From contig NZ_LT559262.1 of assembly GCF_900083545.1 (NCBI RefSeq), positions 372,001 through 436,000 on the forward strand: DNA of 64,000 nucleotides, read 5' to 3'. Shown here in pieces: positions 4,957-26,587 of this stretch. The position numbers and the translations under genes were made by a program. The stretch is from Alistipes provencensis. Its GTDB lineage: Bacteria; Bacteroidota; Bacteroidia; Bacteroidales; Rikenellaceae. The number at the start of each line of letters is the position of its first letter. Within the stretch, counting starts at the first letter, position 1. The notes under the pieces are model-generated. The model saw only the letters and a program-made list of their open reading frames with translations. It was not told where the DNA came from and ran no database searches.

Positions 4957-4968
4957 CGGCAACCGAAA

Positions 4969-10570: not shown

Positions 10571-13467
10571 TTCACATAAGTCACATCAGGTCCCAAGTAG
10601 GAGCGCTTCATGCCGCCGAAATCGATCACCACCTTCTGGACAATCACACCCGGATCGGCGCAGATCAGCCGGAGCGTATGCCGGCCCGGTTTGTCGATAT
10701 TGAAACTGAACGCACTGACGGCGCTGTTCCGGAAGACGTTCAGCCGCCACTGGCTGGAATACTCTTTGGCGTCGGTGGTCATCCACTGCACCATGCCGTC
10801 GTCGATCATCACCCCGTAGCGGGTGTCGCGCTTCGAATCGACGGGGAACAGCGGCAGGGCATAGGCATAGACCGTCACCCGTCCGGCGTTGAACGTGTAG
10901 AAATCGTATTCCGCTGCGGGAGCGCGGTCGGTGAACCACATGTTCTGCGTCGGCGCAACGGCCTCACCCAACTGCACGCAGTCGTTCTCATAGCCCAGCC
11001 CCTTTACCGTGCGGATACGGATATCGTCGTTCTCCCTTTTGCGGTGGAAGCGTCCGGCGTTGATCGACACGCAGCCGTTCTCCTCGACATAGAGTCCGCG
11101 CAGTTCCTCCACAGCAGGCGATGCGGGATTGAATACCGGCACGAAGACCGTCTCCCGCCGGTTGCCCGACACGATCTCGACCTCACCCACGAGGTCCCCG
11201 ACAGGCACCTTCGTCCAGTCTATAGCAACGGCGATCCGCTCCTGCAGGGCTGTCCGTCCGGCGGTGCGGTCCAACCGTATCCACTCGTCCGACGGCATCG
11301 CCGTCCACTCGAACTCCCCGCCGCCGCGGTTGTAAAGTTCGATGAAATTCCCGCGCTTCGTATAGGGATTCACGCAGGGCAGCACCTTCACCGACGACAC
11401 CCCGTAGGTGCAGTCGTCGCCCGGCACGAAGATCTGCATGTCGGCCCCGGCCGGGACCTCCAGCCGCTCCACGGGCGGCATCTCCTGATAGGTCGCAGTC
11501 CAGCCCGGAGAAACGGACATCATGTGGTTCCATTTCCCGTCCAGCAGGGAGTTGTATTTCTCGGTATAGCAGGCGAGACTGTCGTGGTAAGCCTGCGCCC
11601 TTTGGGCCAGCAGGTTGGTAGCGGCACGTCCCTGTCGGGCGTACCAGCGGTTCTGCTGCGCCGTCAGCATCTTCCCGTTCATCAGCGCCGATCCTTTCAC
11701 CGGATAGTGGACCAATTCGAAATAGGCCGCCCGGAAAGCCTCCGGCAATGCATTCAACAACCGTTCGCTCTTCGCAGCGATGCGGTCGTAGGCCGCCATG
11801 CGGCGCTCCGCCTCGTTGTAGTTGACAAAAGAAAAATCGGTGTCGACGACCCGTTCGCGGTCGTGGTGGTTGTTCCACTCGTAGCCCCACCCCATCGCTT
11901 CGGGCTTATGCTGAAAACCCAGCAGATAATAGTTGTCCATGATGTCGGCCAGCTCGGCGCGATAACGGGCTCCGAAGACCGAAGCGAGATACTCCGCCGG
12001 GAAAGCATGGGCGCTGTCGAAATCGAAGCGGTCGATATCCCACGCCATGTCGAGGAAGAACTTCATGCCCAGCTCCCCGGGCTTGATATCGCCGACGTTA
12101 AGCAGCCAATAGCGGCCGGCACCCGTGTCGTAGGCCTTGCGCATCTCCTCATAGATCAGCGTCGGCGGCGTGGTGTTGAGCCACAGGTAGTCGTGCGGCT
12201 CCCCGCAGTAGGAGATGTGGTAATAGACGCCCGAACCGCCGTGACGCAACTGCTCTTCTTTGTTGCTCAGGCGTTTCAGGTAGCCGAAATTATCGTCGGG
12301 CCAGACCAGCGTGACGTGGTCGGGAACCCGCAGTCCCCGCTCGTAAATGTCCATCACCTCCTTGTAGGGGACGAAGAGTTGGGGAATGGAGTCGATGTTA
12401 CGGTCGATATGTTTGCTCAGGATGGCCCGCTGGTCGCTGAGGACCTCTTCCATCAGGCTCACTTCGCGCTCTTTGGTGACCCCGACCAGCCCCGCATCGT
12501 GGATGCCGCGCATGGCCAGCGTGTAGAAATTCTCGTAACGGCCGTTTTCGGAGATGCGCTTGTCCAGCACGCGGTTGATCCCCTCCTTGTTGGTGATGTA
12601 GTTCCACTCGCCCATCGTCTCCCGGTCCCATTCGGTCACGTTGTTGAACAGCAGAGGCTCGCAGTGCGAGGAGGTCATGACGATCCCGTAACGGTCGGCC
12701 ACCTCCTTGTTCTCCGGGTATTTGTTGAACGCCCCCGAGCCCGGATGCATGGCCGGGGCCAGCATGTTGCCCTTCATCCGCAGGATCAGTTCGCAAACCC
12801 GGGCATAGGTCTTGGGACCGATATCACCCAACTCCGGATCGGAGGTCTTCGCCGCCCAAGGGGTGATTCCCCACCCCTCGTCGTTGATAAAGATGCCCCG
12901 GTATTTCACCGAAGGGGCTTTCGAAACATATTCACGGGTGGTCAGCCAAAGGGCCGTGCGCCGCTCCACAGGTACGTCCGCCCACCAGTAGAGCGGCGAG
13001 ACACCCATGGCCTCGGAGAGCGCGAAAGCGCCGTAGGCCGCACCCCGGCGGTCGCATCCGGCGATGACGAGCGCCCGGCGGACTCCCCGCACGGGATTGT
13101 CCACGACCTTCAATACATATTGCTCCCAGCCGCCGCGGATGGCCGAAACGTCCAGCCGTCCCTGCCGCACGAGTTCGTCGATGAAGCGGTTGCGCCCCAG
13201 CGTACCGATCACGACGACGTTCCGCCCCGCGGGTTCCGACACGGAGACGGCGGCGGCCGTGCCCGTCACCCGTCCGATGTCCCCGGCGAAGAGCTCCGCA
13301 ACGGTCTTCACAGCCTCGTGATCGGCCGCATCGACGAACACACCGCAGGCACGGCCGTCGGCGAACAACGCGAAGTCCGAAGCGCCCTGCGGCCGGGAGG
13401 TTATCTCCGGCTGCGCCGAGGCGGCGATGCCGCAAAGCGATAAGAGCAATATCAGTAGTTTCTTCAT
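10567..13467 (-). CDS. GH115 xylan alpha-1,2-glucuronidase
   Basis: A 966-residue secreted protein (signal ending AASAQ) with the GH115 layout: an N-terminal alpha/beta domain (VVIGTLGRN, YGAFALSEAMGVSPLYWWAD), a central barrel with KYRGIFINDEGWGITPWA, AMHPGSGAFNKYP, SSHCEPLLFNNVTEWD and LVWPDDNFGY, then helical and C-terminal beta domains. GH115 enzymes remove glucuronic acid and 4-O-methyl-glucuronic acid from both internal and terminal xylose units of glucuronoxylan. This enzyme therefore defines the PUL target as a glucuronoxylan and predicts release of a methylated uronic acid. A 158-bp gap before it holds repeats like those near the regulator, so a secondary promoter is possible. Confidence 0.95.
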   Translation of the reverse strand: MKKLLILLLSLCGIAASAQPEITSRPQGASDFALFADGRACGVFVDAADHEAVKTVAELFAGDIGRVTGTAAAVSVSEPAGRNVVVIGTLGRNRFIDELVRQGRLDVSAIRGGWEQYVLKVVDNPVRGVRRALVIAGCDRRGAAYGAFALSEAMGVSPLYWWADVPVERRTALWLTTREYVSKAPSVKYRGIFINDEGWGITPWAAKTSDPELGDIGPKTYARVCELILRMKGNMLAPAMHPGSGAFNKYPENKEVADRYGIVMTSSHCEPLLFNNVTEWDRETMGEWNYITNKEGINRVLDKRISENGRYENFYTLAMRGIHDAGLVGVTKEREVSLMEEVLSDQRAILSKHIDRNIDSIPQLFVPYKEVMDIYERGLRVPDHVTLVWPDDNFGYLKRLSNKEEQLRHGGSGVYYHISYCGEPHDYLWLNTTPPTLIYEEMRKAYDTGAGRYWLLNVGDIKPGELGMKFFLDMAWDIDRFDFDSAHAFPAEYLASVFGARYRAELADIMDNYYLLGFQHKPEAMGWGYEWNNHHDRERVVDTDFSFVNYNEAERRMAAYDRIAAKSERLLNALPEAFRAAYFELVHYPVKGSALMNGKMLTAQQNRWYARQGRAATNLLAQRAQAYHDSLACYTEKYNSLLDGKWNHMMSVSPGWTATYQEMPPVERLEVPAGADMQIFVPGDDCTYGVSSVKVLPCVNPYTKRGNFIELYNRGGGEFEWTAMPSDEWIRLDRTAGRTALQERIAVAIDWTKVPVGDLVGEVEIVSGNRRETVFVPVFNPASPAVEELRGLYVEENGCVSINAGRFHRKRENDDIRIRTVKGLGYENDCVQLGEAVAPTQNMWFTDRAPAAEYDFYTFNAGRVTVYAYALPLFPVDSKRDTRYGVMIDDGMVQWMTTDAKEYSSQWRLNVFRNSAVSAFSFNIDKPGRHTLRLICADPGVIVQKVVIDFGGMKRSYLGPDVTYVK

Positions 13468-13625: not shown

Positions 13626-14876
13626 TTACCGTCTCCGGATCGCCGAAAGCCGGACCGCGAAAAGAATGATGTAGAGGTAGAACAACAGCAGGCAGCACAG
13701 TGCGGCCGAGGTTCCGACGGTCAGGGCCCGTTCACCGAAGCTCTGCTGCAGGGCGCCCATCAGCGGAGGCAGCACTGCGCCGCCGATGGCGAAGGTGCAG
13801 ATGATGCCCGAAGCCCGTTTGGTATGTTCGCCCAAATCCTCCGATGCAAGGTTGAAGATGCTTCCCCACATGATCGAGTTGAAGAATCCGCAAAGCAGCA
13901 TCAGCACGATCGACAGCGCCCCGCCGATCGAGAGCGACACACCCAGCAGCGTCATGGCCATCAACGAACAAAAGACCATCGCCGTACGGACCTTCACCCG
14001 GCGCAGGATCACGGCGCCGAACAGGCGTCCGACCATCAATCCGCCCCAATAGATCGCCAGCACGCCCGCCCCGCGCCACTCGGTTCCCAGAAAGGAGATC
14101 GAGTCGATGCCCAAGGCCCGCATTCTGTCGGGCAGGAAACTCGGGATGCCGACCTCAACGCCCATGTAGACGAAGATCGCCACGGCGCCGTAGAGCAGGT
14201 GGGGACATTTGTAGGGACTTCCCGTAACCGGTCCGTCGCCCGCCTGCTCCCGGATCTCCGGCAGGCGAAGGAAATAAAGCACAAAGCTAAGCGCCAACGC
14301 AATCGCCGCGATGACCAGAAACGGAATCTGCACATTGGTCGGGTCGGCCCGAAGCTCGGCCGGAGCATCCCCGCCAACCGCCTCTGCGGAGATCAGCACG
14401 GCGACGAACAGCGGAGCCACCACCGTGGCCGCGGAGTTGAAGAAGCCCACCAGATTGAGCCGGCTGGCCGCCCCGGCGGGATCGCCCAACGCCAGCACAT
14501 AGGGGTTCAGCACGATCTGCAGCAGGGCGACGCCCAGCGCCACGACGAACATCGAGGCCAGAAACGCCGGGTAACCCAGCATGACAGCGGGATAGACGAG
14601 CACGAAGCCCGCGCCCACGACGACCAGCGACAGCACGGCGGAAGCCTTGTAGCCCAGCCGGTTCAGCAGGCAGGACAGCGGCACGGAAAACAGATAGGCC
14701 CCGAAAAAGGCAGTGTTCACCAGTTGTTTCTCCGAAAAGGAGAGCATCCACTTACTCGAAGCGAGGAAGTCGATGAGCGAATTATTCATCGTCGTGATGA
14801 ATCCCACCATGAAGAACAGGATGGACATCACGATCATCGGGAAAAGGTAGCGGTTTCTTTCGGTTTTGAGGTTCAT
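13626..14876 (-). CDS. MFS sugar:H+ symporter (FucP/glucose-galactose type)
   Basis: A 416-residue integral inner-membrane protein with about 12 hydrophobic segments. The N-terminus (SILFFMVGFITTMNNSLI) and the LQIVLNPYVLALGDP and SRLNLVGFFNSAATVVAP segments are typical of the FucP/GluP branch of the major facilitator superfamily. It should import a monosaccharide or small glycoside from the periplasm in symport with protons. In this operon, between GH127/146 and GH115, the likely cargo is arabinose, xylose, galactose or a uronic acid; sequence does not decide. It starts 28 bp after the stop of the GH127/146 gene. Confidence 0.88.
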   Translation of the reverse strand: MNLKTERNRYLFPMIVMSILFFMVGFITTMNNSLIDFLASSKWMLSFSEKQLVNTAFFGAYLFSVPLSCLLNRLGYKASAVLSLVVVGAGFVLVYPAVMLGYPAFLASMFVVALGVALLQIVLNPYVLALGDPAGAASRLNLVGFFNSAATVVAPLFVAVLISAEAVGGDAPAELRADPTNVQIPFLVIAAIALALSFVLYFLRLPEIREQAGDGPVTGSPYKCPHLLYGAVAIFVYMGVEVGIPSFLPDRMRALGIDSISFLGTEWRGAGVLAIYWGGLMVGRLFGAVILRRVKVRTAMVFCSLMAMTLLGVSLSIGGALSIVLMLLCGFFNSIMWGSIFNLASEDLGEHTKRASGIICTFAIGGAVLPPLMGALQQSFGERALTVGTSAALCCLLLFYLYIILFAVRLSAIRRR

Positions 14877-14903: not shown

Positions 14904-17237
14904 TTACTCTTTGCGCACCATCCGGACGCCGAACAGGCCGCCGGCATAGTTGCCGGGGTGCGAACGGAAGCAGACCGTGATCCGCTCCCGACCTTGGGTC
15001 AGGACACTCGGGAGGTCGTAAACGGCCTCGAAAAAGCGGGGTCCGTGTTCGCCCGTGAGGGATACGGTCCTCAGCAGCGTGCCGTCGATCAGGATGTCGA
15101 AATTCCGCTTGTCGCGGTCGGCGCCCCAGAACTCGCAGATCATCTGCATCGGCTGCCGGGGATCGACTTTCACCTCGAAAGAGAACCAGCCGTCGAAGGC
15201 GTGGCGGAACGCACGGCCGTTGGCATTGCCGGCATCGGAGCGCTCCGATTTCAGGTTGTGATCCCGTTCGGGCTGCATCTCGCCGATGCGAAAAAGGTCG
15301 GTGGTCCGGGCTTCCAGCGCCTGCTGAGCCGCGATGATCGTGCGGTATTCCTGCTCGCGAACCACCCATTCCTGCGGGGTGAAGAGGTCGAAATAGACGG
15401 CGTGCTTGCGGCCGTGGAGCCCGTAGAACGGCACCAGCGGAAGCTGCGGATCGACAGTCGTACGGGCCGTGAAATGCAGCGGTTCTCCGGGAACGGGCTG
15501 CACGGCATCCGTCGCGGAACCGTTCTCCGACACGAAGCAGGGAATGTCATAGACCTGCACCTCCCCCTCACCCAGTGGCGCCGCCAACAATACGGGACCG
15601 TAAAAGAAGGCTGCGCGGCGGGGATTGTCGGGCATGGCGACAGTATGGACGCTCATCGGGAATTCGACGGTGAGGGTCGTGCGGTCGGACCACTTTTCAT
15701 TCAGCGTGACATAGGAACCGGGAACTCCGTCGACGGCCTTTTCCCGGCCGTTCAGCCTGACCTTCATCCCCTGCGCCGCCCATTCGGGCCAGCGGATATG
15801 CAGCGGGAAGCGCTGCGCCTTTCCTTTGAAGGAGATCGTAATTTTCGGCTCGGCCGGGAAACGGGTCTCCATCCGCACCTCCATCCCCCGCTCTTTCCAG
15901 TCGAGGAGGGTCGGGATGAAGAGGTTCACAAAAAGGCCCTTATCCTTCACCGACTCGAAAAAGACACTCTCGGCATATTTCACATGATTCTCCAGCCCGG
16001 TCCCCACGCAGCACCAGAAAGCGTCGAACGGAGTGCTGAAAATCTTCTCGGTCCCCGATCCCAGCGGCAGGCAGTAGCAGACCATGCCGTCGTCGGGATT
16101 CTGCGACGCCAGAATGTGGTTGTAGAGCGCCCGCTCGTAATAGTCCATGTAGGCGGCCTTGGCCTCCCAGCCGAACAAGTGCCGGGTGAGCTTCAGCATG
16201 TTGTAGGTGTTGCAGGTCTCGGTAGTGAAGGCCCCCAGACGGTCGTTCAGCCGGTCGGGAAACCCGAAAAGCTCATGGTTGCTGTTGCCGCCGTTGGCAT
16301 AACTGTGGTGGTTGACCACCCTGTCCCAGAAGAACCCGGCGATGCGCCGCTCTTCGGCATCGCCCGTCAACTCGTAGATACGGGCCTCGCCGACGATCTT
16401 GGGAATCTGCGTGTTCGCGTGCTTTCCGTTCAGTTCATCGCGCCCCTGCTTCATCGGGTCGAGCACAGCCCGGTGGTGGAATTTGCGGGCCAGAGCCAGA
16501 TAAGCCCCGTTGCCCGTCAGGGCATACATCTCGGCCAGCGACTCGTTCATCCCGCCGAACTCGCTCCGGAGCATCACCTGAAACTGCTCGTCGGAGAGGT
16601 GGCTGAAACTGGCGACGGCCCAGTCCGTCAGGCCGACAGCCACGGTTTTCGCCTGCTCGTTACCCGCATAGCGGTAAGCGTCGATAAGCCCGGCCCACAG
16701 CTTATGCAGCGTGTACCAAGGAACCCAGCTCCCGTTCAGGTCGAAACCCTCAGTGCGAATGTCCCCTGCGGAGACCTCTTTCCAGATGCGGTCCTCGTTC
16801 GGCATCGCACCGACATACCCTGTTCCCCGCGCCTGCTGGCACACGGCCAACTCGCCGACGGTATAAGCGACGCGCTCACGGAACCGCTCGTCGCCGCTGG
16901 CCGCATACATCCGCGAACAGGCCGAAAGATAGTGCCCCAGCGTATGCCCGGAGATGTCCATCGTCTCCCAGCCGCCGTAGATGGCGCCTTTCGGCAGCAG
17001 TCCGGCGTTCTTGTGAAAGCGGTTCAGCAGGCGGTCCGGCTCCAGTGAGAGCAGCCACGCGCCGTCCTTGTCCATGGCGTGTTTGAACGGACTCCCCTCC
17101 AACAGCCTCAGGTCGGAGAGCGGGAACGCCCGCGCCTCGGGTACGACGGCATCGGGGACCACCGTCTTCGACGCATCCTGCGCCGCCGCGACAAAGACCG
17201 TCAGCGACAGGAAAAGCGATAACAGGGTATGTTTCAT
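14904..17237 (-). CDS. GH127/GH146-type beta-L-arabinofuranosidase (DUF1680)
   Basis: A 777-residue secreted protein (signal ending VFVAAAQ) of the former DUF1680 family. The alpha/alpha barrel begins with LRLLEGSPFKHAMD and GGWETMDISGHTLGHYLSA. The zinc/cysteine centre is visible: a Glu and Cys near residue 386 (GMVCYCLPLGSG) and the FWCCVGTGLENH pair near residue 408. In this family one Cys acts as the nucleophile and zinc holds it in place. A C-terminal beta domain (about 620-777) follows. Characterised members remove beta-L-arabinofuranose, a rarer linkage than the alpha form cut by GH51 and GH43. It follows the methyltransferase gene by only 9 bp, so it is co-transcribed with the corrinoid module. 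Confidence 0.88.
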   Translation of the reverse strand: MKHTLLSLFLSLTVFVAAAQDASKTVVPDAVVPEARAFPLSDLRLLEGSPFKHAMDKDGAWLLSLEPDRLLNRFHKNAGLLPKGAIYGGWETMDISGHTLGHYLSACSRMYAASGDERFRERVAYTVGELAVCQQARGTGYVGAMPNEDRIWKEVSAGDIRTEGFDLNGSWVPWYTLHKLWAGLIDAYRYAGNEQAKTVAVGLTDWAVASFSHLSDEQFQVMLRSEFGGMNESLAEMYALTGNGAYLALARKFHHRAVLDPMKQGRDELNGKHANTQIPKIVGEARIYELTGDAEERRIAGFFWDRVVNHHSYANGGNSNHELFGFPDRLNDRLGAFTTETCNTYNMLKLTRHLFGWEAKAAYMDYYERALYNHILASQNPDDGMVCYCLPLGSGTEKIFSTPFDAFWCCVGTGLENHVKYAESVFFESVKDKGLFVNLFIPTLLDWKERGMEVRMETRFPAEPKITISFKGKAQRFPLHIRWPEWAAQGMKVRLNGREKAVDGVPGSYVTLNEKWSDRTTLTVEFPMSVHTVAMPDNPRRAAFFYGPVLLAAPLGEGEVQVYDIPCFVSENGSATDAVQPVPGEPLHFTARTTVDPQLPLVPFYGLHGRKHAVYFDLFTPQEWVVREQEYRTIIAAQQALEARTTDLFRIGEMQPERDHNLKSERSDAGNANGRAFRHAFDGWFSFEVKVDPRQPMQMICEFWGADRDKRNFDILIDGTLLRTVSLTGEHGPRFFEAVYDLPSVLTQGRERITVCFRSHPGNYAGGLFGVRMVRKE

Positions 17238-17246
17238 CGGCCGGGA

Positions 17247-18251
17247 TTATTGTCGGTTATACTCGTTCAGCGCCTCGTAGAAAGCCCGAATATTCTCCAT
17301 CGGCACCTCGGGCGGAACGTCGCAGCCCGTGGAGAGCACATAATTCGGCCATTCGGCCGTATTGCGCAGCAGCGCCAGCGTCTCCTCGCGGACCTTCTCC
17401 GCCGAAGCCATCTTGAAGACTCCGACCGGATCGAGGTTTCCCATGACCAGCGCCTCCGCGGGACACTCCTTCAGCGCAGCGACCATGTCGATCTTGTTGC
17501 CGAAATGGAGCCCGGCGGCATTCGTCTCGGCCATCGCGGCCGTGCAATGCCCGGTATTCCCGCAGTTGTGCAGCACCACCATGAACCGGTCGTCCTGCAA
17601 TTCCTCGACGATCTTTTTGATGTAGGCCGACGAGAAGGCCGAACAATCCTCGTTCGAAACCAGCCCGGCGGCCGGCTCGGCGATGATGACACCATTCACC
17701 CCCGTCGCCTTCATCGCCCGGAGGTATTCCATAATAAACTCGCTGCACTTGTCCAGCAGCAGCCGGATCGTATCGGGCTCCGTGTAGAGCGCCATCATCA
17801 TCTCCGACATGTCGAACAGCCGGCCCGCCAGCGAGAAGGGACCGATACACCCGCCGAAGATCGGCTTGTCGGTGATGCGTCCGGCAGCCAGCCGGTTGGC
17901 TTTCAGGTACTCGGGCACCCGCCCGGCCTCCAGCGAGGGGATTTGAAGCGCCTCGACCGAAGCCCGGTCGGAAACCAGTCGCCCCACGATGTTGGGAACC
18001 TCGTTCTCGGCAAAGACCACCTCCGCGCCGAAGGCCTCGGCTTCGACCGTCAGGTCCATGATGACGGTACAAGCCGCCGCGGGGAACGCCTCGTTCAGTT
18101 TGCAGATGGCCTCGGCGTGTATCCGCCCGTCGGTCACGGCCTGCCGCACGGTGTAACCGCACAATTCGATTCCGGGATGCGTCATGATGGGAACGGCCAC
18201 CCGCCGGGGGTCGGCCATCACCTCACGGCTCCACGCTTTCATATCTGTCAT
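17247..18251 (-). CDS. URO-D-fold corrinoid methyltransferase, MtaA-like (probable MT2)
   Basis: About 334 residues, start chosen at 18251 because its ATG overlaps the upstream stop codon (ATGA); a longer frame to 18293 exists. It belongs to the uroporphyrinogen decarboxylase fold but lies beside a corrinoid protein, as in methyltransferase systems. The zinc signature H-x-C-(n)-C of MtaA/MtbA methylcorrinoid methyltransferases is complete: H228 and C230 in VVLHNCGNTG and C310 in STGCDVPPEVP. It should move a methyl group between the B12 protein (18919-19557) and a thiol or other acceptor such as homocysteine, or possibly act on tetrahydrofolate. Acceptor identity is unknown. Its place inside a xylan PUL suggests it completes demethylation of a methylated sugar. 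Confidence 0.82.
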   Translation of the reverse strand: MTDMKAWSREVMADPRRVAVPIMTHPGIELCGYTVRQAVTDGRIHAEAICKLNEAFPAAACTVIMDLTVEAEAFGAEVVFAENEVPNIVGRLVSDRASVEALQIPSLEAGRVPEYLKANRLAAGRITDKPIFGGCIGPFSLAGRLFDMSEMMMALYTEPDTIRLLLDKCSEFIMEYLRAMKATGVNGVIIAEPAAGLVSNEDCSAFSSAYIKKIVEELQDDRFMVVLHNCGNTGHCTAAMAETNAAGLHFGNKIDMVAALKECPAEALVMGNLDPVGVFKMASAEKVREETLALLRNTAEWPNYVLSTGCDVPPEVPMENIRAFYEALNEYNRQ

Positions 18252-18925
18252 AGGTTTGTCTCTTTTCGTTTGTAACAATGTTGGTTCGTGCATATTTCAC
18301 AGTGGTAAGGCTGCGGACGCAGCTCCCGGCCGAGGCCGAAGAACCCGCTGACGGATTTCACGGGCGACATCAGGAACGAATCCGAGAGCACGATGCCGCA
18401 CGGTTCGTCCGGAAAGAGCGAGAAGAGTTTCTGCTGCTCGCAGATGTTCCATCCGCAGTAGCCCGGGCTGTAAGGCAGGCTGCGGCGCAGGTCGCACTCC
18501 GCATCCAGCCGCCGTCCGACGAGGGTCACGCAGGCTTCGGCAACGACGCTCCCGACGGAATCGGCGACGAACTCCTTGAGGATATCGCCTTCGGCCTTCA
18601 GCCGGTGCAGATAGGCGTCGTACTCGCGTCCCGCCGTCGCCACGAACAGGCAGACGTGCGACATGCCGGGCAGGTAGGAGCCGATGATGCCCCCGGGTGC
18701 GAACTCCACGCCTCCGGCGCGGACGTGCCGCCGCGGCAGCAGCTCGGCCTCCAGCACCTGAAACATATACCGGGGAACGCACAGCGCGGCGATCTCGGCC
18801 CGGACCTCGCGGACGACCTCCCGGACGGCGGCATCGGGGAGACTCCCCCGATAGCCCATTGTCCGGTAGATTTCGTCGTCGGAGACATCCAGCGAATCCA
18901 GCGCCGCCTCACCCCGCTCTAACAT
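18248..18925 (-). CDS. Stand-alone MetH activation-domain-like protein (corrinoid reactivation)
   Basis: A 225-residue protein resembling the AdoMet-binding activation domain of B12-dependent methionine synthase, without the rest of MetH. The strongest segment is RRSLPYSPGYCGW near residues 168-180, matching the R-x-x-x-G-Y region that binds AdoMet, with PVKSVSGFFGLG downstream. The C-terminus has a Cys cluster (HCEICTNQHC) not expected in MetH, which could bind metal or an Fe-S centre. It would reductively remethylate the inactive Co(II) form of the neighbouring corrinoid protein. It overlaps both neighbours (corrinoid protein stop at 18919, methyltransferase start at 18251), so the three are translated together. 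Confidence 0.8.
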   Translation of the reverse strand: MLERGEAALDSLDVSDDEIYRTMGYRGSLPDAAVREVVREVRAEIAALCVPRYMFQVLEAELLPRRHVRAGGVEFAPGGIIGSYLPGMSHVCLFVATAGREYDAYLHRLKAEGDILKEFVADSVGSVVAEACVTLVGRRLDAECDLRRSLPYSPGYCGWNICEQQKLFSLFPDEPCGIVLSDSFLMSPVKSVSGFFGLGRELRPQPYHCEICTNQHCYKRKETNL

Positions 18926-19557
18926 GCCTGCAACACCCGTTTCGCCAGCACGACGGCGCCGTTGGCATTGGCACTGTAACCGTCGGCGCCGATCTGGAGG
19001 GCGAACTCCTCGTTGACGGGAGCCCCGCCGATAATCACCTTCACCTGCTGGCGCAGCCCTTCGGCAGCCAGCGTGTCGATGACATTCTTCATGTAGTTCA
19101 TCGTCGTGGTCAGCAGCGCCGACAGGCAGACGATCTGTGGGTTGTACTTCTTCACCGCCTCGACGAACTGCCGGTCAGAGATATCCACACCGAGGTTGAT
19201 GACCTCGAATCCGCATCCCTCCAGCATCGAAGCCACGAGGTTCTTGCCGATGTCGTGCAAATCGCCCTTGACCGTGCCGATCACCAGCGTCCCGAGTGTC
19301 GCACCCGTTCCCGCCTTGAGCAGGGGTTTCAGGATCTCGAGGCACCCCTTCATGGCGCGTGCGGCCAGCAGGAGGTTGGGAACGAACGCCGAGCCGTTCT
19401 CGAAGCGCAGGCCTATCTCCTCCATGCCTTTAATCAGACCGTTGTTAATGATGTCCTGCGCGTCAGCCCCCGAGGCGATCGCGTCGTTGACCAGCGCCGT
19501 GGCTTCGTTGAGCTTGCCGGCGACGATCATATCTTTCAAATCCGTGTATTCTGCCAT
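18919..19557 (-). CDS. Corrinoid (B12-binding) methyltransferase subunit, MtaC/MtbC-like
   Basis: A 212-residue protein with a helical cap domain (about 1-88) and a Rossmann-like B12 domain (about 90-212). The base-off/His-on cobalamin signature is complete: GDLHDIGKN with lower axial ligand H101, then a SALLTT segment and IGGAPV. Such proteins carry the methyl group on cobalt between two methyltransferases. The flanking genes supply exactly those partners: a URO-D-fold methyltransferase upstream (19571-20578), a reactivase overlapping its end, and a second methyltransferase. The Met start at 19557 follows the upstream stop by 13 bp. Assignment as a methyl carrier is strong; the methyl donor is unknown. 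Confidence 0.92.
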   Translation of the reverse strand: MAEYTDLKDMIVAGKLNEATALVNDAIASGADAQDIINNGLIKGMEEIGLRFENGSAFVPNLLLAARAMKGCLEILKPLLKAGTGATLGTLVIGTVKGDLHDIGKNLVASMLEGCGFEVINLGVDISDRQFVEAVKKYNPQIVCLSALLTTTMNYMKNVIDTLAAEGLRQQVKVIIGGAPVNEEFALQIGADGYSANANGAVVLAKRVLQAC

Positions 19558-19570
19558 AATACTGATTTTT

Positions 19571-20578
19571 TTATTTAAGTTGTTTTTGTGCCACCTCGAT
19601 AAATGCGAGGATGTTCTCGAAAGGGGTATCCCCCTCGACCGAGTGCGAGGGCGAGAAAATGTAACCGCCCTCGCGGCCCAGTTCCAGCAGGCGTTCCGAC
19701 TCGGCGACGACCTCTTCGCGCGTTCCGAACGGGAGAACCTTCTGCATGGAGAGCCCGCCGTGGAAAGCCAGTCGCCCGCGGTAACGGGGCAGGATGTCGT
19801 AGACGTCCATCACCTCCGGCTGGAACGGGTTGAAGCAGTTCAGCCCGGCGTCGACCAAATCGTCGAACAGCTCGTCCACGTCGCCGCAGCTATGGATCAT
19901 CACATATTTCCCGGCGGCGCGAACCCGACCGTACATCCGCTGCAAGCGGGGATAGATGAACTCTTTCCAGAGGTCGTACCCCATGATGAGTCCCTTCTGC
20001 TGCCCCCAGTCGTCGCCGAAATAGACGGCGTCGATGTCGTATTCGAGGGCCTTTTCCACCTGCGCGAGATTATAGTCGCAGATGGCGTCCAACAACTCGT
20101 TCACGAAATCGGGATTGATGATGAAGTCCATCAGCAGGTTCTCAATGCCTCGCAGGGTCCAAGCCCGCTCGTAGAGCGAGAACCCGATCTGGAAACAGCG
20201 GAACATCCCGGGCTTGGCCGCGATCTCCGGCTCGATGTTGGCGAAGAACCGGGGATCGAGCGGGTCGGGGAAGGTATACCCCTCCAGCGTGGGCTCGGGC
20301 AACACGACGCCCTTCACGTCGCCGATGTCCTTGTCGATACTGCGGTCCCAGACCACCTTGAAAACATCCTGATAGAGATCGCCCCCGAGGTGTTCGAAAA
20401 ACCCGATATCGCTGCCCAACTGCAGGATATGGTTGCCCAGCACCGGATCGAGGTCCTCCACGCCGTAGTATTTCCGGAGCTGCTCCAGCGGCTCCACCGT
20501 AAATTTGAACGACCAAGGCACATAGGGCGGTTTCTTACCGTCCAGCACCGTCTTTATGACTTCCCGTTGTGTCATCAT
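19571..20578 (-). CDS. URO-D-fold methyltransferase, candidate substrate demethylase (MT1)
   Basis: A 335-residue URO-D-fold protein. It has the first two zinc ligands (H229 and C231 in VMIHSCGDVDE) but lacks the third Cys of MtaA-type proteins; the equivalent C-terminal segment reads GYIFSPSHSVEGDTP. That pattern differs from the second methyltransferase at 17247 and suggests the two have different jobs. This one is the better candidate for taking the methyl group from the substrate. It is not heme-pathway HemE, being in an operon with a corrinoid protein and glycoside hydrolases. It starts 13 bp after the DUF3823 lipoprotein gene, so the module is in the PUL transcript. A 4-O-methyl-glucuronic acid derivative is the obvious but unproven substrate. 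Confidence 0.82.
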   Translation of the reverse strand: MMTQREVIKTVLDGKKPPYVPWSFKFTVEPLEQLRKYYGVEDLDPVLGNHILQLGSDIGFFEHLGGDLYQDVFKVVWDRSIDKDIGDVKGVVLPEPTLEGYTFPDPLDPRFFANIEPEIAAKPGMFRCFQIGFSLYERAWTLRGIENLLMDFIINPDFVNELLDAICDYNLAQVEKALEYDIDAVYFGDDWGQQKGLIMGYDLWKEFIYPRLQRMYGRVRAAGKYVMIHSCGDVDELFDDLVDAGLNCFNPFQPEVMDVYDILPRYRGRLAFHGGLSMQKVLPFGTREEVVAESERLLELGREGGYIFSPSHSVEGDTPFENILAFIEVAQKQLK

Positions 20579-20591
20579 GATTTCAGTCCTT

Positions 20592-21368
20592 TTAGTTGTT
20601 CCACTCCTTTACCGGAAGCCCCTCCACCTTGACCACCGGCGTAAACAGGTAGTAATCGGGGATGTTGCCCAACTCGATGGCCATGCGGCAGTAGGCATAG
20701 CTGCGGTAATTGTTCGTATAGCCGGTCTGGTAATCCTTCACCGGAATATCCATCGTCGACTCGCCCTGATAGTTGGGCAGCCAGCCGCTCCAAGTCTTCG
20801 TGCAGGTCGTGGCGCTGTTCACAATCCGCGAGGTGCTCACATAACCGCGGACCTTGGCAAGGGCCGGCCGGTTGGCGTCGGTCACCAGTCCGCCCTCGTC
20901 GTTGACCGTAGCGATCTGGCAGCTCATCTTGATCTGCCCGTCCTCGTACCACGCCTTGAACTCGCTGAGTACATAGTAGGGAATAACCTCGATATCCATT
21001 CTGAGATTGGTCTGCAGATCTATATCGGTCGTGGGATAACCCTCGCTCTCCCCCATGTAGGGGTAATCCGGGAAGACGAAAGGATAGGGGTTGTTGTAAG
21101 GCGTCAGCGAATACTTGCCGCCGAACAACAACTGGGTGAAAGAGCCGTCGGCTGCGACCTGGATGGCCGTTCCGGCATCAACCTTGCCGAAACCCGACTG
21201 CACGACGCGGAGCACGGTGCGGGCGGGATTGCCGTCGAACGGCAGGTTCTCGCCTTCGTAAACCATGTTTCCGCTGATGACGAGCGAAGGAGCCTCGTAG
21301 TTGTCATACTCGCAGGAAGTAAAACCGAAGGCGGCCAACGCCAAACCGATGATTAATATCTTTTTCAT
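20592..21368 (-). CDS. DUF3823 outer-membrane lipoprotein (SusE/F-position glycan-binding protein)
   Basis: About 258 residues, starting at the ATG at 21368, with a lipoprotein signal ending FGFTSCEYD. The SLVISGNMVYEGENLPFDG segment and following beta-rich region match DUF3823, a two-domain family found directly after SusD in many PULs. Such proteins are thought to be surface glycan-binding partners of the SusC/SusD complex. It starts 12 bp after the SusD stop and is followed closely by the methyltransferase module. Ligand cannot be read from the sequence. Confidence 0.85.
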   Translation of the reverse strand: MKKILIIGLALAAFGFTSCEYDNYEAPSLVISGNMVYEGENLPFDGNPARTVLRVVQSGFGKVDAGTAIQVAADGSFTQLLFGGKYSLTPYNNPYPFVFPDYPYMGESEGYPTTDIDLQTNLRMDIEVIPYYVLSEFKAWYEDGQIKMSCQIATVNDEGGLVTDANRPALAKVRGYVSTSRIVNSATTCTKTWSGWLPNYQGESTMDIPVKDYQTGYTNNYRSYAYCRMAIELGNIPDYYLFTPVVKVEGLPVKEWNN

Positions 21369-21380
21369 TGTCAATACCGA

Positions 21381-23321
21381 TTATTGGTTAGGATTCTGTT
21401 CGATATAGGGATTGCCCTCCGACTTCGGATAGTAGGAATAGTACATCGAACGGCTGAAATTCAGCGGCTGGCCGTAATAGGAGGTCGATCCGCGATGTTC
21501 GAGCTTCACTTTGCGGAAGATCCACTTGCCGTCGTCCGAGGTCCCCGGAGCGTAGATTCTGTAAGGCCACAGCCCCTTCATGATCGAGCTCTCGTTGGTC
21601 TCGTCGTAAGCCCAGACCTCGTCGGCGATGCGCCAGCGTTTCAGGTCGTAGTAGCGGTGGTCCTCATAGGCCAGTTCAACGCGGCGCTCGTTCATGATAC
21701 GGTCCATCGTCAGTTCGTTGTCCCGCAGCGTGAAGGACAAACCTCCGGCGCGCTCGCGGACCGCGTTGATCAGTTCCAGAGCCAGCGATCTCATGTTATA
21801 CTCCTTATAGGTCGCTACACCGTTCTCCGAGAGGCAGTAAGCGGCCTCAGCGGCATTCAGCAGCACCTCGCCGTAACGGAAGATGATCTTGGGAACGGTA
21901 CTGCCGCCCTCAGCCTCGGAACCCGACTTGGTGTCCACGCACTTGCGCATCAGGAATCCCGTGTGCGAAATGTAGCCGCTGACGCGGTGCGGGCCCTCGA
22001 GCCCCGTGATTTTCACGTTGTTGTAGTAGTTGCCGTCGGTCTGGTAGTTCTCCATGCCGTCGATGGTCTTGAACGTGTAGCTTCCGTCCGAGTTGCGGAT
22101 GGCCAGACCCGCCTGCAGGTCGATCGCCGTGTTGCGGAACACGGAGCCCGGCGTGAGGATCGAACCGGCCAGACGCGGATCGCGGTCCTCGAAAATCTGC
22201 GACGCGCTGTCGTAAATGCGATACTTCAGCCGCGAAGTTCCGTCCAGCATCGTCTCCACCTCCACGGCACCGTCATAGGGGTTGAACGGCTCGACGCTCC
22301 GGGTCGAAAGACGCTCGTAGGCGTCCACCTGATTCAGCGTGGGGTTCAGCTCGCAGCCCGTCTTCAGACCGGCGTGCAGGGCGGCGCAGATGGTCTTCTG
22401 GGTGAAGTAGTTCTTGAAGGTCGTCCCGTCGTAATCGCGGCTGAAGATTACCTCGGGATTGCCCGAACTCTTGAGGAAAAGACCGGCATAGTTGGCAGCC
22501 AGATCGGCATCCGCCTTATAGAGCGAATAGCCCAGATCCCGGAGGCCCAGATAGGCATCGATGCACTTCTGGAAATAGTCGTTGGCAAGCTCGGCCGGGA
22601 TACCGACCGCCCCGCTCGACAGCACCAGACCCTTGTCGGCATTCTTCTGGGAACGGTAGGCGATGCTTCCGGCATAGAGCATGGCACGGCATTTCAGCGC
22701 CAGAGCCGATCCCTGCGTGGCACGGGTCTTCAGACCTGCGGCGGCTGCCGCCAAATCGCCGACGATGGCATCCATTTCCGAGGCGATGTAGTCGTAAACC
22801 TCGGTTTCCTTGTTGCGTGGACGCGCCAACTCGATGGGGTTCTCCGTGTAGTCGAAAGACTCCTCGATGATGGGTACGCCGCCCAAGATGGTCACAAGGT
22901 CGAAATAGACCATGGCACGCAGGAAACGGGCTTCGGCGAGGAAATAGTTGCGCTGCTCGTCGGAGATGCCCGTCGCATGCTCCTTCAGTTCGCCGATGTG
23001 GATGTTGATCTCGCGGATCAGCGTGTATTTACCCGCATAGTCGCCCACCCGGTAGTTGTGGTCGACATTCCCGGCCTGTTCCCAATAACTGCTGCCTTGT
23101 GAACACTCGTCCCAGCGGGCGATGTCCATCAGGCCGCCGTTGAAATCTTGGTTGATCGTCAACCGCGCATAGAAGTTCGCAGCCACACTGCTGATGCTCT
23201 CGACCGAGGAGTAGACCTGATCCCCGGAGAGCGCCGTGGAGTCCTCCTGCGTCAGCCAGTCGTTGCAGGACGAGCAGATCAGCGCACAACCGGCCAATAT
23301 TGCATATACTTTGTTTTTCAT
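21381..23321 (-). CDS. SusD-like glycan-binding lipoprotein
   Basis: A 646-residue RagB/SusD family protein with a lipoprotein signal (ILAGCALICSSC). Visible family hallmarks are the TPR-like helical N-terminal half (YFLAEARFLRAMVYFDLVTILGGVPII near 130-155) and the C-terminal EVLLNAAEAAY, AVRERAG and RRVELAYEDHRYYDLKRW segments. It caps the SusC transporter at the cell surface and binds the oligosaccharide before import. It lies 11 bp after the SusC stop, the usual pairing. At 646 residues it is longer than the common 500-600, which may reflect a large branched ligand. Confidence 0.95.
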   Translation of the reverse strand: MKNKVYAILAGCALICSSCNDWLTQEDSTALSGDQVYSSVESISSVAANFYARLTINQDFNGGLMDIARWDECSQGSSYWEQAGNVDHNYRVGDYAGKYTLIREINIHIGELKEHATGISDEQRNYFLAEARFLRAMVYFDLVTILGGVPIIEESFDYTENPIELARPRNKETEVYDYIASEMDAIVGDLAAAAAGLKTRATQGSALALKCRAMLYAGSIAYRSQKNADKGLVLSSGAVGIPAELANDYFQKCIDAYLGLRDLGYSLYKADADLAANYAGLFLKSSGNPEVIFSRDYDGTTFKNYFTQKTICAALHAGLKTGCELNPTLNQVDAYERLSTRSVEPFNPYDGAVEVETMLDGTSRLKYRIYDSASQIFEDRDPRLAGSILTPGSVFRNTAIDLQAGLAIRNSDGSYTFKTIDGMENYQTDGNYYNNVKITGLEGPHRVSGYISHTGFLMRKCVDTKSGSEAEGGSTVPKIIFRYGEVLLNAAEAAYCLSENGVATYKEYNMRSLALELINAVRERAGGLSFTLRDNELTMDRIMNERRVELAYEDHRYYDLKRWRIADEVWAYDETNESSIMKGLWPYRIYAPGTSDDGKWIFRKVKLEHRGSTSYYGQPLNFSRSMYYSYYPKSEGNPYIEQNPNQ

Positions 23322-23332
23322 CGCTAATTCTG

Positions 23333-26300
23333 TTAAAAGGTTATGTTAACGCCCACCGTGTACACCCGGTGCTGGGGGTAATCGGCGCCCTGAACACCCG
23401 AAACCTCCGGGTCGACACCGTAATCCTTCAGGTTGTCGAACGAGAAGAGGTTCGTTCCCTCGACGTAGAAGCGGCACTTCTGGATCAAGGCCTTCTTCGT
23501 CCACTTCGTCGGAAGCGTATAGCCCAGCACGAGGTTGCGCAGACGCAGATAGCGCACATTCTTGTTGTAGAAGTTGTTCGTACGCCACGTCGACGGGTTG
23601 TCCGGACCGCGGAACGCGGGGAACTTGCCGGGAACCCATGGCGACGTAGGGTCGAGGATGTTCTCGTGGTGCCACACGTCCAGCGTGTTGTACTTGAAGC
23701 CGTTGGCCACATGCTGTACGCCGCTGCCCCAGATGGTGAACCACTCGGGGCACCATGTATTCATGAAGCCTCCGGCGAAATCGGCCGCGAAGTCGATGCC
23801 CTTCCAGTCCAGTCCGAACGAGAAGCCCAGCGACAGCAGGGGATTCTTGTTGCCCTGACCGTCGTTGTAGGGGTAGTCGGAACCGGCATAGCCCAGCGGA
23901 CGGCGGTCGTAGTCGTTGATGACGCCGTCACCGTTGTAGTCGCGGAAGATCAGGTCGCCCGGCAGCAGCGTCGTGTTGTTGCGCCCGTCGATGTTGACCG
24001 GATAGTTGTCGATCTCCTCCTGAGTCTGGAACACGCCGACCACGTCGTACATCCAAGCATTGCCGTTCACCACGTTGGCCCAACGGTCGCTCTGTCCGAA
24101 CCAGTATTTGTCATAGGCGTTAAAGAACTTTTCGCCGTAAATCTTGCCGTTCTTGCGGCGGGCCAGCGTCATGTTACCACCCACGAAATAGCTGATGTCA
24201 CCGGCTTTGTCGGCCCACTTCAGCGAAACGTCGAGACCCTCATTCATATCGGAATTGAGGTTCTGCGGCAGGGCGCTCAGACCGCTCTCGTAGGGGAAGT
24301 TGACGTCGTCGGGATAAGCCGCGATGCCGTCGCGCTTGCGCTTGAAGAGGTCGAACTCGAAATTCAGCCGGTTGTTCAGGAAGCCCAGTTCGACGCCGAG
24401 GTCCATGATGACGCTCGTCATCCACGTCAGCGTGGTGATGGGAGTTCCCTTGACCTTCGTACCCACGATCGCCGAGTTGTCGGTCGACGAGAAGGGGTCG
24501 GACGGAATGTAGGAGCTGCCCTGTTTGTAGTTGTAGCCCGTCATGAAGGCATAGTCGGGATAGAGGCTGCCCAACCCGTCGTCGCCGACCTCACCGTAGG
24601 AGAAGCGCAGTTTGACGTTGGTGAGCCACTCGGCAACGCGCGAATCCTTGAAGAACGACTCCTCGGAGATGCGCCAAGCGGCGGAAACCGACGGAAAGAA
24701 GGCCCAGCGCTTGCCCTTCGGGAAACGCCACGAACCGTCGTAACGCCCCGAAAAGTCGATGATGTACTTCTGGTCGTAGTTGTAACCGGCACGGAAGATC
24801 ATACTGGCCGTGGAATTCTGTATCTTCCGCTCGTCGACGGTGTTGTTCTCGCTTGTGGAAACCAAGTCGACAAAAGGATTATCAACCGGTGACTGCTTGA
24901 CATAGAGGTAGTTTTGCTGACGCTGAAAGAACTCGAAACCGGCCGTGGCCGTCACGTTGTGCTTGCCGGCGAACGTGCGGTCGAAATTCAGCAGGAACTG
25001 GCCGTTGACGTCGTAGTAGTTGTCGCGCGTGCGGCTGCGGTTGGCGCCTCCGGCCGCAGCCTTGTCGTACATCACCACATAGCTGTCCGTCGCCCGGTTA
25101 TAGGTATACTCCTTGTAGCCCTTCTCGTTGCGGTTCTGGTTGTTGTTGGCGAAAAAGTAGGAGAACAACGCCTTGGCGCTCAGACCTTCGAGCGGCGTTT
25201 CGTAATCCGCCGTGAGGGTGTTGCGGATGGTCCGCCACTTGTTGTCGTATTCGCCGGCGTGCGCCTTATCCATGGCGGCCATATTGCGCGAGTCGTGCGC
25301 CACGAGGTAGTTCAGGTAATTCGGATTGTCGTTGGCATAGGGACGGTAGGTCGGCAGCAGGCCGAACAGCGAGTTGCGAACCAACTGGTAACCGCCCGCC
25401 GCAGCGTCGATCGGGGTCAGGGCCGGACCGTTGTTGTCCTCGATCTTGGCCGACATCTGATAGCCTATCTTCAGCCTTTTGGTCATCTGCATGCTGAAAT
25501 TACCCTGCAGGTTGACACGGTTGAAATTGTAGTCCTTGAAGACGGCGTCCTGATCGATGTACGAAGCCGACACATAGTAGGAGGTCTTCTCGCCGCCGCC
25601 CGAAATACTGGCGTTCACATAGTACTGCGGGGCAGCATTGTCGATGTAGTTATCATACCAGTCGAAACTGCGGTAGTCCTCGCCCGTGGCGGGATTGTAA
25701 CGCCCCTCTTTCCACTTCTCCAGCTCCACACGCAGGTAAGCCAGCTCCGAAGGATCGGTCATGACACCACGGTTGACCTTCTGCATGGCCTGCGCGTAGT
25801 TGTACTCGTAGGCGTTCATCAGTTCGGGATAGGTGGTCCACTGCTGCCAGCCCATGTAGGCGTTGAGCGAAACGGTGGGCGCCGTATTCTTGCCGCCCGA
25901 CTTCGTCGTCACAAGGATGACGCCGTTGGCAGCCTTCATACCGTAGATGGCAGCGGCTCCGTCCTTCAGGACCGAAATATTTTCGATATCGTTGATGTCG
26001 AGGTTGTTGAACGACCCCGCATCGGTCATGATACCGTCGATGACGTACAGCGGCGCACCCATGTTGCGGATCTGAAGGTTCGCACTGGCTCCCGGCTCGC
26101 CGGATTTTTGGCGGGCGGTGATACCGGCGATCTTGCCGACGATGGCGCCGGCGGTCGTCGAAGAGGTCGAACGCACGATATCGTCGCTGTTGATGCTGCT
26201 CACGGCAGCACTCACACCACCCTTGCGCTTGGTTCCGTAACCCACGACGACGATCTCGTCCACCAGTTTCGAATCGTCCTGCAGGGTGATGCGCATGAAA

Positions 26301-26587
26301 CTCTCGCCCGCCAGTACCTTCCGCTCGACGGTCGCATAGCCGACGTAGGAGAAGACCAGCGTCGCGTTGTCCGCCACGTTCAGGCGGAACCTGCCCTCGG
26401 AGCTGGTTATCGTACCAACCGCGCTGTTCTCTTTGACAATGACGGTAACACCGGTCAGAGGTACGCCGGCAGCATCGCAAACCACACCGTCGACAGCCCG
26501 TTCCTGTGCCGAAGCCGGAACGGCGGCGAGCAGCAGAAGCGTCAGCAACGCCCACCAGCGACGTATATATGAATTAAAATTTTCCAT
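23333..26587 (-). CDS. SusC-like TonB-dependent outer-membrane transporter
   Basis: A 1084-residue SusC/RagA family transporter. After the signal peptide (ending PASAQ) comes a carboxypeptidase-D regulatory-like domain (about 30-110), then the plug with DEIVVVGYGTKRKGGVSAAV near residue 120 and the MGAPLYVIDGI segment, and a 22-strand barrel ending in YTVGVNITF. It imports oligosaccharides across the outer membrane with energy from TonB. It is followed by its SusD partner. The gene ahead of it (26630-28384) is a surface lipoprotein, so the transporter is third in the operon, not first as in many PULs. Confidence 0.96.
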   Translation of the reverse strand: MENFNSYIRRWWALLTLLLLAAVPASAQERAVDGVVCDAAGVPLTGVTVIVKENSAVGTITSSEGRFRLNVADNATLVFSYVGYATVERKVLAGESFMRITLQDDSKLVDEIVVVGYGTKRKGGVSAAVSSINSDDIVRSTSSTTAGAIVGKIAGITARQKSGEPGASANLQIRNMGAPLYVIDGIMTDAGSFNNLDINDIENISVLKDGAAAIYGMKAANGVILVTTKSGGKNTAPTVSLNAYMGWQQWTTYPELMNAYEYNYAQAMQKVNRGVMTDPSELAYLRVELEKWKEGRYNPATGEDYRSFDWYDNYIDNAAPQYYVNASISGGGEKTSYYVSASYIDQDAVFKDYNFNRVNLQGNFSMQMTKRLKIGYQMSAKIEDNNGPALTPIDAAAGGYQLVRNSLFGLLPTYRPYANDNPNYLNYLVAHDSRNMAAMDKAHAGEYDNKWRTIRNTLTADYETPLEGLSAKALFSYFFANNNQNRNEKGYKEYTYNRATDSYVVMYDKAAAGGANRSRTRDNYYDVNGQFLLNFDRTFAGKHNVTATAGFEFFQRQQNYLYVKQSPVDNPFVDLVSTSENNTVDERKIQNSTASMIFRAGYNYDQKYIIDFSGRYDGSWRFPKGKRWAFFPSVSAAWRISEESFFKDSRVAEWLTNVKLRFSYGEVGDDGLGSLYPDYAFMTGYNYKQGSSYIPSDPFSSTDNSAIVGTKVKGTPITTLTWMTSVIMDLGVELGFLNNRLNFEFDLFKRKRDGIAAYPDDVNFPYESGLSALPQNLNSDMNEGLDVSLKWADKAGDISYFVGGNMTLARRKNGKIYGEKFFNAYDKYWFGQSDRWANVVNGNAWMYDVVGVFQTQEEIDNYPVNIDGRNNTTLLPGDLIFRDYNGDGVINDYDRRPLGYAGSDYPYNDGQGNKNPLLSLGFSFGLDWKGIDFAADFAGGFMNTWCPEWFTIWGSGVQHVANGFKYNTLDVWHHENILDPTSPWVPGKFPAFRGPDNPSTWRTNNFYNKNVRYLRLRNLVLGYTLPTKWTKKALIQKCRFYVEGTNLFSFDNLKDYGVDPEVSGVQGADYPQHRVYTVGVNITF

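Follow-up and report, generated by a model that had tools for sequence, protein, structure and literature searches.

A four-gene corrinoid methyltransferase module in a polysaccharide utilization locus of Alistipes provencensis, a predicted oxygen-independent demethylase of methylated sugars

Many sugars of plants and algae bear methyl ether caps, which have to be removed before glycolysis, and the known sugar demethylation route requires O2. How such groups could be removed without oxygen is the question raised by a stretch of 64,000 nucleotides from Alistipes provencensis (contig NZ_LT559262.1, positions 372,001 to 436,000 of the forward strand; hereafter, the window), in which a polysaccharide utilization locus (PUL) encloses four minus-strand open reading frames (ORFs) at 17247-20578. 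These encode a methyltransferase of URO-D fold (MT1), a cobalamin (corrinoid) carrier (CP), a stand-alone MetH-type activation domain (ACT), and a second URO-D-fold methyltransferase (MT2). The mechanism of anaerobic sugar demethylation has been termed undiscovered (PMC12316285, excerpt; sources so marked are represented here by partial text), and no report of corrinoid demethylation of sugars was found in the open-access full texts searched, a body of literature that largely leaves out subscription papers and preprints. That the four genes form a corrinoid methyltransferase module is close to certain. We propose, with a probability of roughly three in four, that they encode an oxygen-independent, cobalamin-dependent O-demethylase of a methylated monosaccharide that passes the methyl group to a thiol. 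Taken separately, a methylated sugar is a likely substrate, and a thiol is somewhat favored as the acceptor; the odds for module, substrate, acceptor, and sugar were judged, not computed.

The sequence-only reading of this DNA had described two URO-D-fold methyltransferases, a B12 carrier with a DLHDIG motif, and a MetH-activation-like reactivase, and ORF calls, Pfam, and predicted folds confirm both their positions and their identities. MT1 matches Pfam URO-D at 1.4e-22, over residues 143-332 only, and its predicted structure (mean pLDDT 95.5) has MtaA (4ay7) as the nearest fold, with Z 28.3 and a root-mean-square deviation (rmsd) of 3.2 over 309 residues. Because UROD chains tie with 4ay7 within 1 Z, fold alone cannot decide between MtaA and UROD. 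A plain HemE identity was rejected on a hemE score of 21 bits, against a cut-off of 303, and on the association of MT1 with the carrier. In a weak profile match to 4ay7 (E 0.00073), the HSC of MT1 is aligned with HIC, and His312 stands opposite the MtaA Cys. The putative ligands of MT1 are His229, Cys231, and His312, compared with the His-Cys-Cys of MtaA; His229 and Cys231 are kept in 81 of 81 aligned relatives, and His312 in all 80 rows with a letter at that position. The acetogen zinc motif E-x14-E-x20-H is not present in MT1, and O-demethylases such as MtvB appear in neither fold list, an absence that carries no evidential weight. Within the URO-D superfamily, His-Cys-Cys is described as the mark of S/Se methyltransferases, while in O-methyltransferases carboxylates or non-coordinating residues replace one or both Cys (PMC10418091, excerpt); judged by its residues, His312 of MT1 would fit this "replaced Cys" class only loosely. 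MT1 is predicted to be a (sugar methyl ether):corrinoid methyltransferase.

The other three proteins supply what such an enzyme would need. CP has B12-binding (2.6e-29) and B12-binding_2 (6.2e-22) domains and the motif GDLHDIG, which is of the DxHxxG form expected of the stand-alone corrinoid protein in acetogen-type four-component O-demethylases. It is the only stand-alone protein among three B12-binding matches in the window's genome, the others being a 720-aa ORF of mutase size and a 1204-aa ORF of MetH size, labels that follow from length; MTHFR adjoins the latter. ACT matches Met_synt_B12 at 1e-8 (35.4 against a cut-off of 25), a partial match covering 48 of 273 profile positions, and its predicted structure (mean pLDDT 87.5) has the fold of the MetH activation domain (best match 1j6r, Z 20.9, rmsd 2.1, 193 residues), with other MetH chains at Z 15.9-17.4 and the next row at Z 5.2. 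Its predicted role, modeled on that fold, is S-adenosylmethionine (SAM)-dependent reactivation of Co(II). As no match to a RACo/Ram-type activator (PF14574) was found in the window's genome (G000), ACT is the only activator seen there. Beyond the MetH-like fold, it carries an invariant C-terminal CxxCxxxxC (C209, C212, C217) and C157, a cluster that is possibly a metal or Fe-S site. MT2 (URO-D, 1.9e-60) aligns over its full length with 4ay7 (1e-21), and its H242, C244, and C324 match the HxC and distant Cys that we take to be the MtaA zinc ligands. It is thus alike in sequence and ligand positions to the MtaA/MtbA/CmuA methylcobamide:coenzyme M methyltransferases, but differs in scoring 157.9 bits in TIGR01463 (MtaA/CmuA family), below the curated cut-off of 235.4. 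From its residues, MT2 is predicted to be a methyl-corrinoid:thiol methyltransferase and would fit the thiol class. Its likelier start is the internal Met15, so the 46-bp overlap between MT2 and ACT may be an artefact of gene calling.

In the proposed sequence of events, SusCD and the glycosidases of the locus would free a methylated sugar, and a gluP-like permease would import it. MT1 would then take the methyl group off the sugar ether and load it onto Co(I) of CP, as suggested by family, fold, invariant ligands, and context, and MT2, with its His-Cys-Cys site, would pass it to a zinc-bound thiol. The fold of ACT suggests that oxidised cobalamin would be reactivated with SAM, as in MetH. Given a MetH-sized B12 protein with MTHFR in the genome, MT2 would most simply methylate a thiol, perhaps homocysteine, which is the simplest candidate acceptor and would give methionine. 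What the analysis establishes is the content and order of the genes, the folds, the conservation, and the genomic associations; activities and substrate are inferred from these.

The reason to think of a sugar comes mainly from relatives of MT1. A scan of 84,980 species genomes was made, and counts of loci given here concern the best 80 (L057-L136), not all relatives; some contigs also occur under a second number (L045=L060, L042=L094, L046=L070, L047=L077, L048=L109, and L049=L113). In these 80 loci MT1 shares 64-92% identity with that of the window; by deposited titles, they span Bacteroidota, Kiritimatiellota, Planctomycetota, Verrucomicrobiota, Chloroflexota, Acidobacteriota, and others, assignments in which the binning of metagenome-assembled genomes (MAGs) may be wrong. 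In seven of them (L063, L071, L079, L082, L084, L089, L091), a cytochrome P450 lies near MT1; a B12 module is present in cis in six of the seven, and the same six hold a ferredoxin, a ferredoxin reductase, and an alcohol dehydrogenase, with an esterase accompanying the P450 in three loci. The P450s of L079 and L063 match 6g5o at 1.7e-193 and 8.4e-109, with the next PDB matches at 4.1e-42 and 1.9e-37. We take 6g5o to be the Zobellia 6-O-methyl-D-galactose P450. On one strand of L079 the order is MT1, CP, URO-D/thioredoxin protein, CobW-type GTPase, ACT, P450, ferredoxin, ferredoxin reductase, alcohol dehydrogenase, GH2. No second P450 was found in the L079 and L084 genomes, where this one lies at distances of 4.0 and 6.0 kb from MT1, and both of the MT1-bearing genomes in a sample of 397 from the L079 family have it. 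The P450 linkage occurs on separate MT1 branches (L063, L071, and a Lutibacter/Mariniflexile clade), and L063 falls with L083 within the 13-row MT1 set of the window (Shimodaira-Hasegawa-like approximate likelihood ratio test 95). An arrangement of P450, ferredoxin, reductase, and alcohol dehydrogenase is given for oxidative demethylation of 6-O-methyl-D-galactose (PMC10033563, excerpt), and the P450-linked loci resemble that arrangement. That system (Reisky 2018, cited in PMC10033563, excerpt), which shares a gene cluster with MT1 relatives in six loci, probably carries out a reaction of like kind (sugar-OCH3 to sugar-OH), but it needs O2 and makes formaldehyde.

The idea of an oxygen-free alternative to the P450, which the sequence-only reading had put forward, is supported by these data. 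P450 searches of four genomes, the window's and those of L058, L059, and L060, gave no match; heme-copper oxidase (COX1) was likewise found in none of the four, nor in the L057 genome, cytochrome bd not having been searched. Heme-copper oxidase is present in all six genomes with P450 plus module. Sugar-related genes recur around MT1 more generally. A galactokinase is near MT1 in five loci (L083, L094, L096, L052, L053), the three scanned passing the TIGR00131 cut-off and the other two being 71-82% identical to a scanned one. Among 103 same-strand neighbors of lone MT1 genes in 45 loci, the families include MFS_1 (8), Sugar_tr (6), SSF (6), sulfatase (3), and FGGY kinase (3), in overlapping rows taken from the top 25 of 116 families. 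A GH67 alpha-glucuronidase was first suspected next to some MT1 genes; by Pfam it is GH3. The window's genome also holds a second, broken MT1 copy (G000:C5:995646-996235; L041:9644-10251), in pieces of about 70% identity with internal stops, adjoining an alpha-L-rhamnosidase-family gene, as if the MT1 of another PUL had been lost.

The order MT1-CP-ACT-MT2 recurs in L057, L058, L059, and L060 (4 of the best 80 loci), so the arrangement is more than chance. CP is in cis within the fetched flanks of 16 loci. A second type of hardware, consisting of CP, a URO-D protein with a C-terminal thioredoxin domain, a CobW-type GTPase, and usually ACT, occurs in 10 of the 80 (L071, L076, L077, L079, L082, L084, L089, L090, L091, L131) plus L052 and L053; the URO-D/thioredoxin protein and the GTPase are placed between CP and ACT, and this MT2-like protein has V-x-C instead of H-x-C in the three rows aligned. 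The CobW-type module of L131 is headed by a distant URO-D-like protein (L131:5055-6299; 28% to MT1), and because of this second protein one hub may serve two substrate methyltransferases. RACo is found near the MT1 relatives L052, L053, L057, and L075. Where no carrier adjoins MT1, one may be supplied in trans. In a sample of the window's order, MT1 is present in 13 of 393 genomes (E <= 1e-60), and a stand-alone carrier in 11 of 13 MT1 genomes compared with 40 of 380 others (Fisher test, p 4e-9); without the five cis cases the figures are 6 of 8 and 40 of 380 (p 5e-5). Nineteen lone-MT1 genomes were chosen, for having a carrier-sized ORF, from 31 searched, and in 14 of them CP lies elsewhere with at least one partner nearby (MT2 or URO-D/thioredoxin protein, CobW, ACT, or RACo; tblastn, E <= 1e-8). 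Some of these partners are only 24-28% identical, while G464 and G467 have, near the trans CP, an MT2 that shares 59-60% identity with a window-type MT2.

Several observations weigh against the proposal. MT1 is without a CP in the fetched flank in 64 of the best 80 loci, the flank being short on some contigs; two of the 13 MT1 genomes in the order sample have no carrier, and in two of the 31 searched (G475, G478) the B12-binding ORFs were all long. The cut-off for the carrier was chosen once the list had been seen (at 1e-60 the counts are 11 of 13 and 51 of 380, p 4e-8), and the Fisher tests ignore genome relatedness. As to the P450, 27 of the 29 genomes that have it in the L079 family sample are without MT1, and the P450-linked loci carry the URO-D/thioredoxin MT2 and CobW-type GTPase, not the MT2 of the window.

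Which sugar is concerned is the most tentative part of the proposal. The 16-gene operon includes GH115, and in land-plant xylan the chief methylated sugar is 4-O-methyl-glucuronate. A dedicated route, in which GH115 frees 4-O-methyl-glucuronate and the module takes its methyl group, had been the sequence-only reading, and it is still a possible account of the window, where this sugar may be the substrate; in L059, GH115 lies 42 bp upstream of MT1 and is that genome's only GH115 match. The check proposed with that reading, co-occurrence of GH115 with the module in other genomes, did not bear it out. GH115 is next to the module in just two loci, the window's and L059, which are related and thus not two independent cases, and it gave no match in the genomes of L057 (a MAG-type record) and L060, both with the full four genes; linkage to GH115 as a general rule was ruled out by the best 80 loci and by a GH115 search of module genomes. 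The MT1 of L057 is 91% identical to that of the window, with 30 differing alignment columns, none of them a putative ligand, in a locus with sulfatases, a GH16, and a GH2 beta-galactosidase relative. The GH16 is close to 8ep4, with porphyranases and carrageenases next, and the GH2 is close to 5t9a; the targets of GH16, GH2, and sulfatases are presumed from PDB molecule names and recall. This galactan-type setting also counts against the proposal as far as glucuronate specificity is concerned. On the L057 contig, which is labeled Clostridia, the module is Bacteroides-like, its MT1 being nearest to those of the window and L058; a sulfatase/GH16 locus that includes RACo is also present, and the contig is probably mis-binned or transferred. 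An MFS permease adjoins the module in four of five window-type loci, that of the window being 70-77% identical to those of L057 (70%), L058, and L059, and at E <= 1e-120 it is found in 1 of 252 genomes of the order, the window's own. The L057 permease scores 228.6 as gluP, above the cut-off of 202.55, and the window's 195.8, just below it; the permease is gluP-like and not of a known uronate type. That permease and MT1 are shared by the two settings suggests either a single class of substrate, a methylated hexose, or an enzyme of lax specificity.

A methylated galactose or other neutral hexose from the same PUL, with GH115 adjacent for other reasons, is the other candidate for the window. The P450 and galactokinase links of the MT1 family, the L057 locus, the gluP-like permease traveling with the module, and the position of L063 and L083 in the window's own MT1 set all agree with it, but methyl-galactose is, to our knowledge, no usual component of seed-plant xylan, and GH115, GH43, GH51, and GH127 point to an arabino-glucurono-polysaccharide, so that for the window this sugar too is somewhat doubtful. 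Ferulate is present on arabinoxylan, and it or a similar acid esterified there could be the substrate of a methoxy-aromatic demethylase. O-demethylases of four parts that act on aromatics, built from MT-I, corrinoid protein, MT-II, and activating enzyme, are known (PMC12915777, excerpt). We consider an aromatic substrate unlikely, as no esterase family was found among the 16 operon proteins scanned and MT1 relatives occur with P450, sulfatase, galactokinase, and sugar-transporter genes, contexts that do not suit it. A role in methionine synthesis or in methyl-sulfur or methyl-selenium metabolism, of the kind put forward for type 1 mlp clusters, would agree with the His-Cys-Cys site of MT2 and the MetH-type activator; the His at the third position of MT1, the missing RACo/Ram-type C-terminal domain in the window's genome, the MetH-length B12 protein and adjoining MTHFR already there, and the PUL context make it improbable. 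URO-D-fold methyltransferases with an MtgC/MtaC-like carrier serve methylotrophy elsewhere, and methanol from methyl esters could be imagined as the substrate, but the scan of the operon proteins showed no pectin-type esterase family, and with the P450 and galactokinase links of the MT1 family this is very improbable.

The proposed sugar O-demethylase also departs from known systems. Acetogen four-component O-demethylases (vanillate/veratrol; OdmB, VdmB) likewise combine MT-I, corrinoid protein, MT-II, and activator, and their MT-I belongs to the URO-D superfamily (PMC10418091, excerpt), as MT1 does, a likeness of fold and family. Unlike them, the window's module lies in a PUL and sugar context, its MT2 is a URO-D protein with His-Cys-Cys and not a pterin-binding one (no pterin-binding family was found among the operon proteins scanned), and its ACT is of MetH type, not an ATP-dependent activator of RACE type. 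Type 1 mlp clusters (Kountz and Balskus, PMC10418091, excerpt) resemble it in having several URO-D methyltransferases and a stand-alone corrinoid protein outside methanogens; as described in the excerpt, their Mlps must be His-Cys-Cys, an activase of Ram/RACE type is required, and they are linked with S/Se genes, whereas MT1 is His-Cys-His, no RACo was found in the window's genome, and MT2 alone fits His-Cys-Cys. MetH and split MetH (TM0269 activator) are alike in ACT fold and CP type, but here the proteins are separate and the operon has no pterin-binding or homocysteine-binding MetH modules. The module would work like a four-component O-demethylase, yet without pterin MT-II and RACE activase, and it is also outside the type 1 mlp definition (MT1 ligands, Ram). 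Corrinoid methyl transfer had been framed as normally a matter of acetogens and methanogens, which is too narrow, since related clusters are reported from more than 100 genera (PMC10418091, excerpt).

The operon that holds the module consists of 16 minus-strand genes with intergenic gaps of -46 to +158 bp (Table 1). It runs from GH43 through a glycan-binding protein, SusC, SusD, and DUF3823 to MT1-CP-ACT-MT2, followed 3' of MT2 by GH127, the permease, GH115, GH2-GH43, GH43, aldose epimerase, and arabinofuranosidase, so the mid-operon position between SusCD/DUF3823 and the glycoside hydrolases (GHs) had been read correctly. Of the earlier description as a xylan PUL, the SusCD pair and the xylan-directed exo-enzymes (GH115, GH43) stand by Pfam. 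The scan of the 16 operon proteins showed no endoxylanase family, the genome outside the operon not having been searched for one; the xylan label therefore rests on GH115 plus GH43/GH51/GH127, and the target is better named a glucurono-arabino-polysaccharide, probably xylan. Besides the regulator, two plus-strand genes outside the operon were noted. At 510-2294, adjoining the PUL, is a Schlafen group 3 helicase-domain protein with a weak GIY-YIG match, and at 33965-35026 a TIM-barrel protein that matches GH2_C below threshold; in L058, a regulator of the same type has beside it a protein alike in length and match.

Table 1. Features of the operon and its regulator, with positions in the window
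Feature	Position	Strand	Basis or remark
MT1, URO-D-fold methyltransferase	19571..20578	-	Pfam URO-D; fold nearest MtaA 4ay7; ligand conservation
CP, cobalamin (corrinoid) carrier	18919..19557	-	Pfam B12-binding and B12-binding_2; alignment; genome search
ACT, stand-alone MetH-type activation domain	18248..18925	-	Pfam Met_synt_B12; fold search; alignments
MT2, URO-D-fold methyltransferase	17247..18293	-	Pfam URO-D; His242/Cys244/Cys324 aligned with MtaA
GH127 beta-L-arabinofuranosidase-family protein	14904..17237	-	Pfam
MFS sugar permease, closest to gluP glucose/galactose transporters	13626..14876	-	195.8 bits, curated cut-off 202.55
GH115 alpha-glucuronidase-family protein, possible 4-O-methyl-glucuronate source	10567..13467	-	Pfam
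GH2-GH43 fusion	7676..10570	-	Pfam
GH43 with C-terminal beta-xylosidase-type domain	6114..7679	-	Pfam
Aldose 1-epimerase	4969..6099	-	Pfam
Alpha-L-arabinofuranosidase (GH51-type domains) with CBM_4_9	3022..4962	-	Pfam
DUF3823 lipoprotein-type PUL protein	20592..21374	-	Pfam
SusD	21381..23321	-	Pfam
SusC-type TonB-dependent receptor	23333..26587	-	Pfam
Putative surface glycan-binding protein (BT_3987-like N, GLUG)	26630..28384	-	Pfam
GH43, first operon gene	28411..29502	-	Pfam
Hybrid two-component regulator, divergent from operon	29758..33795	+	64% identical regulator adjoins MT1 in L058

Beyond the window, the evidence leans, by a narrow balance, toward a widespread, horizontally scattered B12-dependent sugar O-demethylase, in which MT1 would be the conserved substrate half across many PULs, served in cis or in trans by a hub of carrier, MT2, and activator, an oxygen-free counterpart of the P450 that stands beside it in some marine bacteria, with the methyl groups supplying methyl-thiol (methionine) metabolism. 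As a candidate for oxygen-free sugar demethylation, the MT1 family is concrete enough to be tested. If the proposal is true, the use of polysaccharides would be linked to vitamin B12, and corrinoid O-demethylation would extend beyond aromatics to carbohydrates.

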